A stretch of DNA of 42,380 nt, taken from a virus. A program made the position numbers and the translations under genes. This document shows positions 25,713 through 36,096 of the stretch, in pieces (within the stretch, counting starts at the first letter, position 1; every line of letters begins with the position of its first letter). Below the pieces are notes generated by a model. It saw nothing but the letters and a program-made list of their open reading frames with translations, did no database searches and was not told the origin of the DNA. The DNA lies in the IMG/VR virus record IMGVR_UViG_3300027902_000015, positions 1 to 42,380 of that record; one strand, 5' to 3'.

Positions 25713-26710
25713 TAAGCCATTAACATCATTACGTGGCGAAAGTTAGGGCCACGGAATAGACAGGAAATCTCCCCGATCACCATCTCCTGGGTTAGAGACA
25801 GGATTTCCTGGAGAAATTTAGGATTGGCTATCATCTGGATCTGTGGTCCCGAGTAATCTATTGGTATGATCTCCTCGAGCCATCCAACGCTTTTCTTGCT
25901 TTTACAGATCAATTGGTTTTCTTTCAATGTCAGGTCGACTCGGAGATCCAAAAGCGAAGCCCCCTCTACCATAATTATAGAGCGATCCATCGACTCCTTG
26001 ATCTCGTCAGGCAGAAGAATTACTTTGCCTTCGACCTGGAGATATTCCTCTACATCCATCGGCTCCCCTGACTTGAGCCGGATACTTACCAGGAGACCTG
26101 ACTCTTCATTAAAGAAATGGACCCAAGCCCAGTCCAGGGCCATGTGAGTAAACTTGTATTTCCCCAGATGTTCGGCTTGTTCACCGGGCAGAAGGAAATT
26201 ATATGGCCAGGGTTCTGCCTGAACGAACTGGGTGATCCGCCAGTTATCAGACGAACTGATCAGGTTGCCCTGTATGTGAATACAAGTCAGGTGAGGTTTG
26301 GTCATATCCCGGCTGCAGGAGAACTGACAGAAAGACAGTCCTTCTTGATAATCTTTGGGTAGAGCGTAGAATTCGTTCTCCGGTTCCAACGGCGGGACCA
26401 CCTTCTCTAAGAGTCGGAGGCCCGCTTTGGTTCTGCCAGATTTGATCTTGATTTCATTCTCTTCGGGGTCCTGGGTGATCTCGACCTGATCCCCAGTTAA
26501 CTTCTCCAGGAGCTTGTATAACTCCTCAGCCCTGACAGCCCCCTCCACTTCAGTAACGAAGGGGACCATCACTGCGAATTGATCGTTATAGGTAGAGATA
26601 CAGTCTCGGTGGAAATGAAAATGTACGCTACCCTCGACGATCTCTCGGGATGCCAGCCCTGGCTGGAGAAGTTTCAGGGCCTGCAAAAATTGTATTCTCT
26701 CCAAAAACAT
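25712..26710 (-). CDS. dnaN: DNA polymerase sliding clamp (DnaN-type beta)
   Basis: 332 aa with the repeated beta-alpha-beta clamp pattern: LERIQFLQALKLLQPGLASRE (domain 1), a middle domain around KDYQEGLSFCQFSCSRD and LTCIHIQGN, and a third domain ending FRGPNFRHVMMLMA, which matches the usual C-terminal strand ending near P-V-M-P-M/L. It forms a ring that holds polymerase on DNA. The ATG has AAAGGACTAACCG upstream. The start overlaps the end of dpdA by 83 bases, and the stop overlaps the polymerase start (TAATG), coupling modification and replication genes. Confidence 0.85.
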   Translation of the reverse strand: MFLERIQFLQALKLLQPGLASREIVEGSVHFHFHRDCISTYNDQFAVMVPFVTEVEGAVRAEELYKLLEKLTGDQVEITQDPEENEIKIKSGRTKAGLRLLEKVVPPLEPENEFYALPKDYQEGLSFCQFSCSRDMTKPHLTCIHIQGNLISSSDNWRITQFVQAEPWPYNFLLPGEQAEHLGKYKFTHMALDWAWVHFFNEESGLLVSIRLKSGEPMDVEEYLQVEGKVILLPDEIKESMDRSIIMVEGASLLDLRVDLTLKENQLICKSKKSVGWLEEIIPIDYSGPQIQMIANPKFLQEILSLTQEMVIGEISCLFRGPNFRHVMMLMA

Positions 26711-27713
26711 CGGTTAGTCCTTTTTCTTCTTTAGTTTGTGAAAAACTCCAATACGAGGTGAGTATTTGTGGTTGGTTCATTTCCTTTAGGGTTTGTATAT
26801 GTAACCGACTAGTTGACGTAACCATATAGATCTTGGCACTGTCTGGTTTGACTTCCCACTCAGGAGGAATCATCTTATCTTCAGATTCCGCAAAGAACCC
26901 CCCTTGTAGTTTAGGCTCAGCTGGAAGATTTAGTTTCGCTGGCCACTTTGGCCAAAACTTTACTAAGTTCTGGTAGTAAGTGATATTCAGTTTTTCCCGT
27001 TGTCTATAGAAATTGGCAATTCCTATCTTAATGAGTTTAACTAACCTGGCATTTTCTACTTCGTGTTCTCCCCAACCGAACTTTTCTTTTTCAACATAGT
27101 GTCTAATGGCCTCTTGTTCCATTTCTGAGAAGGTCAAGAAGTGTTTTCCTGACTCTTTTTGATAAGGAGAATCGACAGAAACAAATACTCTCCAAGGAGG
27201 TAATGAATAGTCGTAATCTCCATTTCTGAATTGTGGGACGAGAATAGAACCGAAGGCAGAGTATTGTATCCAGGAAGTAGAGTCAACACTTGCCCATGGA
27301 TATCTGGCCATCAGATCGAAAGAGGTCAGTCCGAAACCGTGGACCTTATGACAAGGCGCTTTCTTGGAATTGTTGCAGATAATCCTCCAATATCGATCTA
27401 AGGCGGTTGTTCTCGCCTCCGTATCCATTTTAGCAATGGCACCAAGACAGAAATAGGGATAATTATCAAGACATCTCTTTAAATAAGACATGTCAGACCC
27501 AGCATGGAAGACAGGCAAGGGGGTTAACCCCTCCGCCTCCATAATCTCCTGGTTTTTCCAGGATGCCTCAGCATTTCCGATAACATCCAGATTACAATAA
27601 ATGTAAATCTGATCTTGATTTCTCTTAATGAAATCGATGTATTTGTAAACGTCTATCTCCAGACCTTTTGTGCTGGCAGAATACGCACCGGAATCCATAA
27701 AGAGTTCTATCAT
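26628..27713 (-). CDS. dpdA: DpdA-type DNA transglycosylase (7-deazaguanine insertion)
   Basis: 361 aa TIM-barrel related to tRNA-guanine transglycosylase. Signatures of phage DpdA are clear: LFMDSGAYSA (Asp7), YCNLDVIGNAEASWKNQ (~39-55), LPVFHAGSD (~66-74), VHGFGLTS (~124-131), ASVDSTSW (Asp144, likely nucleophile). It should exchange guanine in phage DNA for preQ0 or a derivative. It follows queC (TAAATG) and overlaps the clamp gene by 83 bases, so the last ~27 residues are encoded in overlap with the clamp N-terminus. The typical zinc site of bacterial TGT is not obvious. Similarity by eye is strong. Confidence 0.85.
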   Translation of the reverse strand: MIELFMDSGAYSASTKGLEIDVYKYIDFIKRNQDQIYIYCNLDVIGNAEASWKNQEIMEAEGLTPLPVFHAGSDMSYLKRCLDNYPYFCLGAIAKMDTEARTTALDRYWRIICNNSKKAPCHKVHGFGLTSFDLMARYPWASVDSTSWIQYSAFGSILVPQFRNGDYDYSLPPWRVFVSVDSPYQKESGKHFLTFSEMEQEAIRHYVEKEKFGWGEHEVENARLVKLIKIGIANFYRQREKLNITYYQNLVKFWPKWPAKLNLPAEPKLQGGFFAESEDKMIPPEWEVKPDSAKIYMVTSTSRLHIQTLKEMNQPQILTSYWSFSQTKEEKGLTDVFGENTIFAGPETSPARAGIPRDRRG

Positions 27714-28397
27714 TTAGAGATACCTTTTGAGAACTTGGAGAGTTTGTTTTGCTCGTTTTGGTTCATATCCCCCGGCTTCCATTTTTACATAGTATTTTTT
27801 GGTACCGGGCCATTCCATTAACTTTCGGATTTGTTCGTCAGAGAATATGTTCAAATTATTATAGGAGAAAGCCACGAATCTTCGGAAGCAGGCAGGGCAC
27901 TCGAAACAATGTTCCTGTTTTCCTTTAAAACAGGAATAGGCACTTGTTAAGACTTCGACTGGGTGGTTATTATCAAGATACCACTTGACCATATCTTGCT
28001 TGGTCATATCAGAGAACAGAGTATGGAGAATCTTCTCTTTCTTAAATAAAATGGTCAACATTACACTGGTGTGATAGTAAAACTCGGGATTTCGATCCTC
28101 CGTGGTATCTTCTCCTTTCTGAGAGATCAGATAAATCTCATCTCCATAGTTGGCGGCCGCTACAGCCAGTACCAAGTTTCGTCCTGGTATCCAACCATCT
28201 GGATGTTCAAAGAATCCCAGGTTCAGTTTTGGTCCCTTGTGAACGATACGAGACTTGAAACCATCAATCGCCCATAACTCTGATCTCTCATACTTATGAC
28301 CTAAAGGAAAGTATAAGAGTAGAGGGTTTTTGTCTTTCAACCAATAGTAAGCGATCAGACTGTCAATTCCGCCGGTGAATAATAGAACAGGTCTCAT
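27714..28397 (-). CDS. queC: QueC, 7-cyano-7-deazaguanine (preQ0) synthase
   Basis: 227 aa. The PP-loop is FTGGIDSL (~7-14), with Thr in place of the usual Ser. The C-terminal zinc site is SCFKGKQEHCFECPACFRR with Cys156, Cys164, Cys167 and Cys170, spaced as in QueC. GWIPGRNLV (~68-76) is another QueC motif. It converts 7-carboxy-7-deazaguanine to preQ0 using ATP and ammonia. The start overlaps the HAD gene stop (ATGA), and it ends just before dpdA. A second PP-loop protein (Gat-QueC) lies upstream, so this one is the likely preQ0 maker. Confidence 0.85.
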   Translation of the reverse strand: MRPVLLFTGGIDSLIAYYWLKDKNPLLLYFPLGHKYERSELWAIDGFKSRIVHKGPKLNLGFFEHPDGWIPGRNLVLAVAAANYGDEIYLISQKGEDTTEDRNPEFYYHTSVMLTILFKKEKILHTLFSDMTKQDMVKWYLDNNHPVEVLTSAYSCFKGKQEHCFECPACFRRFVAFSYNNLNIFSDEQIRKLMEWPGTKKYYVKMEAGGYEPKRAKQTLQVLKRYL

Positions 28398-35505: not shown

Positions 35506-35710
35506 TTGAGCTCTCCGATTATCTCAATGGTCCCGGTTTCCGGAGCCTCAGGAATTAACTCGACCTGAACATTTGGAACTAGCATGTTGAATTGTCCTGC
35601 TGTGAGAGTGAGAGGAAAGTGACTCTCCCGTTTCAGACTATCAGACTATAGGAGAAATAGTCTGACTCATCTCCCGCCTTATGCCTAACTTTCCAGATGG
35701 TGAAAAGCAT
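35502..35710 (-). pseudogene. Small gene broken by an 8-bp tandem duplication
   Basis: An ATG overlaps the queD stop (TAATG) and opens MLFTIWKVRHKAGDESDYFS followed by YSLIV and a stop. In another frame the sequence then continues KRESHFPLTLTAGQFN, MLVPNVQVELIPEAPETG, TIEIIGELK, ending GTGA with the glycosylase start. The shift is at two adjacent copies of ATAGTCTG (plus strand 35634-35641, 35642-35649). Deleting one copy restores a 66-aa protein that fits the operon exactly. An inverted third copy (35657-35664) makes a hairpin there. Downstream start MLVPN could give a 27-aa remnant. Confidence 0.7.
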
Positions 35711-36096
35711 TAGGCCCTCCATTCGCAGCGAGATCCGGAAGTCTCCCAGAGCTTGACCAGGGCCAATTCGGTGCCAGTGATTTTCAATCTGGCCTCAAGC
35801 ACCTTGACCATCCATAGGACCATATTCTCAGCGGTGGGACACTCAGCAGGAAAACCTGCAATAGATCCCAGATCGTTCAGATAGGAATGGTCCAGGCGAT
35901 CGATGATCAATTCCTTAACTAAATCTTTGAGCTGTTTGAAATCGGCAATCATTCCGGTTTTGACATCAGCACATCCGGAGACGCCGATCTCGAGCTTATA
36001 GCTATGGCCATGCCGGTATTTGCAGGCGCCTTGATGTAGGGGGAGATGGTGTCCCGCCTCGAATTCGAATGCTTTTACGATGAAGAAATTTGGCAT
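35710..36096 (-). CDS. queD: QueD, 6-carboxytetrahydropterin synthase
   Basis: 128 aa of the 6-pyruvoyl-tetrahydropterin synthase fold. Zinc ligands His16/His17 (FEAGHHLPL), His29 and His31 (KYRHGHSY), with catalytic Cys25 in ACKYRHGH, the C-x3-H-G-H of QueD. MIADFKQLKDLVKELIIDRL and LDHSYLND are also typical. It makes 6-carboxytetrahydropterin from the FolE product. The start overlaps the previous stop (TGATG). Confidence 0.88.
   Translation of the reverse strand: MPNFFIVKAFEFEAGHHLPLHQGACKYRHGHSYKLEIGVSGCADVKTGMIADFKQLKDLVKELIIDRLDHSYLNDLGSIAGFPAECPTAENMVLWMVKVLEARLKITGTELALVKLWETSGSRCEWRA

Follow-up and report, generated by a model that had tools for sequence, protein, structure and literature searches.

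The IMG/VR virus record IMGVR_UViG_3300027902_000015, a 42,380-base linear fragment of an uncultivated phage that we analysed over its whole length (hereafter the window), carries a predicted 7-deazaguanine DNA-modification island at positions 26628-36096. Comparable islands have been described in phage 9g and its relatives. The original prediction that FolE, QueD, QueE, QueC, DpdA and Gat-QueC lie in one block was borne out by hidden Markov model profile searches, which placed FolE, QueD, QueE, two QueC-family proteins and DpdA at the expected positions, all six on the minus strand (Table 1). Beyond these six, the block encodes a HAD phosphatase, a 168-aa protein, a radical SAM enzyme, a short-chain reductase of the SDR family, a phosphoribosyltransferase (PRT) domain fused to FolE, and a 237-aa protein. 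All island genes are present with their catalytic motifs, except for one zinc cysteine of Gat-QueC. A search for near-identical DNA among phage records returned no match to the window.

Table 1. Island genes and the adjoining clamp gene, in window coordinates.
Feature	Positions	Strand	Evidence
Sliding clamp adjoining dpdA	25712..26710	-	92% identity to L050
DpdA C-terminal beta-alpha-beta module, residues 294-361	26631..26834	-	equivalent to N-terminus of 9g-type DpdA
DpdA core, residues 1-273	26895..27713	-	phrog_887 9.5e-52 (residues 3-222); starts at FMDSGA; D7, H125, D144
QueC2, divergent QueC-family ATP pyrophosphatase, 227 aa	27714..28397	-	PF06508 53.4 bits vs cut-off 22
HAD-type phosphatase, 96 aa	28394..28684	-	NT5C 2.9e-6; phrog_1238 4.5e-19; DVDG, TSR, K, DD motifs
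Gat-QueC, 544 aa	28746..30380	-	GATase_6 1.2e-11 + QueC 2.1e-35
Protein of unknown function, 168 aa	30380..30886	-	
Radical SAM enzyme, BlsE-like fold	30862..31887	-	CxxxCxxC + further C-terminal Cys; PF04055 4.5e-6
SDR-family reductase	31884..32540	-	PF13561 1.4e-29
PRT-FolE	32537..33499	-	PF01227 3e-48 (GTP cyclohydrolase I); phrog_8995 3.4e-7; CEHH
Protein of unknown function between folE and queE, 237 aa	33515..34228	-	weak PHROG match only
QueE, 7-carboxy-7-deazaguanine synthase	34341..34985	-	TIGR03963 (rSAM_QueE_Clost) 6.2e-39; phrog_2076 4.8e-30; CxxxCxxC
QueD, 6-carboxytetrahydropterin synthase	35710..36096	-	PF01242 1.5e-32; TIGR03367 above cut-off; HGH motif

FolE, QueD and QueE are the enzymes that lead from GTP to 7-carboxy-7-deazaguanine (CDG), and would do so here. 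Gat-QueC would then convert CDG to preQ0 and, most likely, onward to the archaeosine base (G+), as in 9g, and DpdA would replace guanine with the deazaguanine base in the phage DNA. The gene for this last step, dpdA (26628-27713, minus strand), falls in the TGT/DpdA family as had been proposed, by profile, by its residues D7, H125 and D144, and by a dpdA-clamp-polymerase gene order as in 9g. Its relatives occur in phages such as 9g, JG054 and PSASB_03, and it is about 41% identical to 9g DpdA over residues 3-212. Across an alignment of seven DpdAs, D7 and D144 (the two TGT active-site aspartates) and H125 (His196 of 9g) are invariant. The pathway, together with the DpdA profiles, residues and synteny, therefore lends good support to a phage-encoded route from GTP to 7-deazaguanine in DNA, and we consider it very probable, judging from sequence, that the phage modifies guanine in its DNA in this way. 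The original prediction stands as far as this route is concerned, but there is more to the locus than the plain preQ0 island that it implies. The purpose of the modification is likely escape from restriction, by analogy with the literature (PMC6884629).

The DpdA of the window is built in an unusual order. In 9g DpdA, roughly 70 residues forming a strand, a helix and a strand lie ahead of the DSGA motif. In the window a stop codon immediately precedes the dpdA ATG and the protein begins at FMDSGA, so that the N-terminal strand-helix-strand element is absent there; it is present instead at the C-terminus.

The origin of this arrangement can be read from related phages, in which small open reading frames (ORFs) of about 50-70 aa, many starting MKIYLA, lie downstream of dpdA. 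A profile built solely from 65 free-standing module ORFs recognises the N-terminal segment that immediately precedes DSGA in other DpdAs, with ten ORFs reaching E < 1e-3 (best 5.7e-7). It also matches the C-terminal end of L160 DpdA (residues 294-346 of 350, 2.7e-4; L-numbers denote fetched relative loci), and with it the C-terminus of the window DpdA outscores all 20,000 shuffles. When the free modules were compared by hhalign along 9g-type DpdA, only the N-terminal segment matched (probability 73%, E 3e-5; other segments ≤1.2%). The clearest evidence comes from L050, a close relative of the window (clamp 92%, DnaE 81% identity), which carries a separate ORF (12585-12791) directly after dpdA, with 57% identity over 68 residues (4.8e-23) to residues 294-361 of the window DpdA; at the junction the dpdA stop TAA is followed by the module-ORF start ATG (TATAATGAAA). 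Because this separate ORF matches the window C-terminus, the window gene is dpdA fused to its downstream module, a circular permutation of the usual order. As a fact of sequence architecture, we hold with high confidence that the window DpdA is circularly permuted, with the first beta-alpha-beta module at its C-terminus.

Free modules are widespread among the fetched loci. We found 170 such ORFs, all on the dpdA strand and 137 of them at most 1 kb downstream, with up to six copies near a single dpdA; these location counts hold partly by construction, because the seed ORFs came from the region after dpdA, whereas the match to DpdA N-termini is not so affected. DpdA ORFs too short in front to hold the module numbered 36, and 27 of these have a free copy nearby. 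For one of the free modules, no relative turned up among 50,697 phage records, and a limited full-text literature search yielded nothing on DpdA in permuted or split form. Two loci show further oddities. Three tandem modules in L149 (10586-11005) each appear to be split over two frames at a similar point, through sequencing errors, decay or frameshifting. L009 (9986-11809) encodes a 608-aa DpdA ORF in which about 320 extra residues, which may be an intein, are inserted immediately ahead of the VDSTSW-type active-site region.

The standalone QueC of the island also departs from expectation. It belongs to the QueC family, as originally proposed, but differs from canonical QueC, and we call it QueC2. 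E. coli QueC depends on four essential residues, Y35, R99, Y131 and Y189 (PMC13329287). The window QueC2 keeps the P-loop TGGIDS, the PGRN motif and all four zinc cysteines (C...CxxCxxC); positions 35, 131 and 189 are occupied by L, T and F, respectively, and the YxQxHxxE and YPDC motifs of canonical QueC are absent. Canonical QueC, Cap9 and QatC (PF06508) share with QueC2 the same fold (Z about 17), the P-loop and the zinc site. Unlike QueC and Cap9, QueC2 lacks Y35 and YPDC, and it sits in DpdA islands rather than in CBASS or qat operons.

These changes extend across a family. A viral-contig scan yielded 162 relatives, of which 80 were kept, giving 74 aligned rows of the QueC2 type. YPD is missing from all 74 and Y35 from 71, Tyr takes the place of H39 in 72, and the zinc site is kept. 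Phage QueCs with known products (CP220, dADG; HVTV-1, dPreQ1) and Gat-QueCs retain Y35 and an aromatic residue at 131. We rejected the idea that QueC2 is the ADG-making enzyme of Campylobacter phages, as the CP220 QueC keeps Y35 and FPDC. Of 37 whole records, 30 have QueC2 as their sole QueC-family gene, and the other seven (L019, L020, L023, L025-L028) also encode Gat-QueC, as the window does; this count of second copies is a lower bound because a virus record can be incomplete. When genomes were scanned with the QueC2 alignment, the first scan found none, and a second found three phage-like contigs of metagenome-assembled genomes (MAGs), plus bacterial proteins that scored as canonical QueC. 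By its sequence signature, QueC2 is a divergent clade with an altered pocket that stands in for canonical QueC in many uncultivated phages.

Several relatives bear on where QueC2 occurs. Near QueC2 in marine phages lie DpdA2-like TGT genes with an ADSGG motif (L038:10237-11526, L061:10737-12047), and the notion that marine QueC2 phages insert a base without any DpdA was accordingly rejected for L038 and L061, the two examined. L015 is the isolated Bacteroides phage BS162P1 (OP172706), whose QueC2, DpdA-like and QueE-like genes are annotated as hypothetical; it offers a practical test case. Several other DpdA islands (L161, L163-L166, L168, L174) hold QueD, QueE and FolE with no detected QueC of any type, and might insert CDG or a derivative.

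QueC2 travels with two further enzymes. We compared 82 loci anchored on DpdA, not on QueC2, of which 28 carry QueC2 and 37 canonical QueC. The HAD phosphatase is present in 23 of the 28 QueC2 loci and in 1 of the 37 canonical-QueC loci (p = 9e-12); for a BlsE-like radical SAM enzyme the corresponding counts are 16 of 28 and 0 of 37 (p = 5e-8). Both associations persist when each DpdA cluster at 70% identity contributes a single locus (p = 5e-10 and p = 2e-6, respectively). The PRT, tried as a member of the same set, was rejected by the counts, occurring in 28 of 37 canonical-QueC islands and 6 of 28 QueC2 islands. In L007 (= L063), L056, L064, L076 and L098, HAD and QueC2 are fused into one protein. 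The L007 fusion, modelled with AlphaFold (pLDDT 88.7), has a first domain close to QatC, QueC and Cap9 (Z 17-18) and a second, HAD domain whose best fold match is AfhF (Z 12.4, 31% identity), the D-arabinose 1,5-diphosphate phosphatase of phage HY126 (PDB 9iqw). The HAD proteins studied here differ from AfhF in being fused to or beside QueC2.

The radical SAM enzyme of the window scores slightly below the PF04055 cut-off (27.4 against 29.5 bits), and it has both the CxxxCxxC motif and the superfamily fold, with C11, C15 and C18 invariant in 22 sequences. Its AlphaFold model (pLDDT 87.3) best matches BlsE (Z 24.3 over 290 residues), followed by SkfB (20.7). BlsE is a radical SAM cytosylglucuronate decarboxylase of blasticidin synthesis (PDB 7vob) and shares just 12% identity with the window protein, for which 50,697 phage records contained no relative. 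The fetched loci do contain kin: the window enzyme forms one clade with those of L020 and L019, two loci that also carry Gat-QueC. L019 additionally has an SDR between the radical SAM gene and Gat-QueC, 36% identical to that of the window. MAG contigs aside, all relatives with the full set of genes are uncultivated viruses. L104, of the same phage type and with the full set, comes from a contig that was binned with a Sulfuricurvum MAG, which hints weakly at the host range of these phages.

Comparison with L050 points to movement of these genes. The replication genes of the two phages are 81-92% identical, whereas their radical SAM, QueC2 and HAD proteins are just 27-34% identical; this gap suggests that the cassette has been exchanged. 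We propose that QueC2, HAD and the radical SAM enzyme, with the SDR, form an exchangeable tailoring cassette. QueC2 would use ATP to activate a carboxylate, that of CDG or a related compound, HAD would take off a phosphate, and the radical SAM enzyme and SDR would alter the base further. Since QueC2 lacks tyrosines essential in E. coli QueC and its clade travels with HAD and the radical SAM enzyme, the pathway may not end at preQ0 or dG+.

Overall, a phage 7-deazaguanine DNA-modification island with a permuted DpdA and a tailoring cassette is probably the right explanation of the locus. The final base is either dG+, made by the known route, or an undescribed further derivative; that the cassette yields a new base is a tentative proposal, one we would not yet favour. 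Similarly tentative is the combined reading that QueC2-HAD-radical SAM(-SDR) makes an undescribed DNA 7-deazaguanine and is swapped between close phages while DpdA is modular, with an exchangeable first beta-alpha-beta piece. On that combined reading the piece is fused at either end or present as tandem free mini-proteins, and could set DNA specificity.

Four points weigh against the preferred explanation of the locus. Marine QueC2 loci have no detected radical SAM gene and mostly no HAD; QueC2, HAD and the radical SAM enzyme are without known chemistry; the modelled fold matches of HAD and the radical SAM enzyme yield no substrate; and the activity of the window Gat-QueC is not certain, because its last zinc cysteine is a threonine. 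Further 7-deazaguanine derivatives, along with DpdL, DpdM and DpdN, have reportedly been described in phages, and parts of the cassette may overlap with this newer literature.

The strongest competing explanation, which we judge possible though rather unlikely, is an ordinary dG+ island. Here Gat-QueC would make preQ0 and then G+ for insertion by DpdA, QueC2 would be no more than a diverged enzyme for the CDG-to-preQ0 step, and HAD, radical SAM and SDR would be unrelated passengers. The dG+ island of phage 9g (Queuovirinae), in which Gat-QueC and DpdA lead to dG+ in DNA (Hutinet et al. 2019, PMC6884629), shares FolE, QueD, QueE, Gat-QueC, DpdA and the dpdA-clamp-polymerase order with the window. 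All 9g genes are present in the window and 9g itself requires no further gene; moreover, where QueC2 is the only QueC-family gene, as in 30 of the 37 records, it would need to act on CDG. Yet two tyrosines that E. coli QueC cannot do without, Y35 and Y131 (PMC13329287), are missing from QueC2, while phage QueCs with known products keep Y35 and an aromatic residue at 131, and its strong co-occurrence and fusions with HAD and the radical SAM enzyme are unexpected for passengers. Phage 9g itself differs from the window in having DpdA in normal order, FolE without PRT, a polymerase not of the DnaE type, and no QueC2, HAD or radical SAM among its annotated neighbours. The Pseudomonas phages JG054 and PSASB_03 resemble the window in having a DpdA island beside clamp and polymerase and a PRT-FolE fusion; unlike the window, they have the module at the DpdA N-terminus, a single QueC or Gat-QueC, and neither HAD nor radical SAM.

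A nucleotide route, improbable in our view, would have the FolE-fused PRT add ribose phosphate to CDG or preQ0, with HAD dephosphorylating the product, so that the phage also makes deazapurine nucleotides. It has a precedent in TubE, the CDG-phosphoribosyl pyrophosphate (PRPP) phosphoribosyltransferase of tubercidin synthesis (PMC6112128), and PRT and HAD both lie within the window island. However, the PRT accompanies canonical-QueC islands far more often than QueC2 and HAD, the fused domain matches xanthine PRT models, and DpdA, which requires a free base, is present. Most improbable is a QueC2 that acts in counter-defence or modifies proteins like Cap9 and QatC, which do so via deazaguanine chemistry (PMC13329287): its model is as near QatC (Z 17.6) and Cap9 (17.1) as QueC (17.2), but in most genomes QueC2 is the sole QueC-family gene, inside an island with FolE, QueD, QueE and DpdA.

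The tailoring island with permuted DpdA, our preferred explanation, bears on how such loci are annotated. The base made by each phage 7-deazaguanine island is usually predicted from its genes, and a divergent QueC with two travelling enzymes points to modifications that current annotation overlooks. For a transglycosylase, a permuted architecture with spare modules encoded on their own, as in DpdA, is unusual, and it raises a directly testable question: does the small module set which guanines are replaced?

Gat-QueC joins a class II glutamine amidotransferase domain with Cys2 (MCGIFA) to a QueC domain (SGGIDS, YGQ, VPGRN, YPDN). Its zinc site has three cysteines and T as the fourth residue, as in L019, and a nearby histidine might substitute. 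The N-terminal domain of PRT-FolE (about residues 1-138) is xanthine/guanine phosphoribosyltransferase-like, contains the PRPP loop VVDDVVDSGAT, and matches the xanthine PRT model NF006613 at 1.2e-8, below its curated cut-off. The PRT is not special to the window, because the fusion also occurs in JG054 and PSASB_03 and the domain is frequent in canonical-QueC islands. DpdA frees one guanine per inserted base, so the simplest reading of the PRT is guanine salvage; it would recycle the released guanine to GMP and towards GTP. The 237-aa protein is kept in L050 (70% over residues 1-168). The 168-aa protein matched no family in Pfam, PHROGs, NCBIfam or PADLOC and had no relative among the fetched loci.

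Replication genes adjoin dpdA on its downstream side, and the order dpdA-clamp-polymerase is common to the window, 9g, JG054 and PSASB_03. The clamp start overlaps the last dpdA codons, the module tail, by 83 bases, and the free module ORF of L050 overlaps the clamp start likewise. Next to the clamp, 22110-25712 (minus strand) encodes a DnaE-type DNA polymerase with a C-terminal uracil-DNA-glycosylase-like domain, as in L050 and L104. In many related loci the polymerase position beside the clamp is taken by an ORF of about 870 aa that begins with a similar domain.

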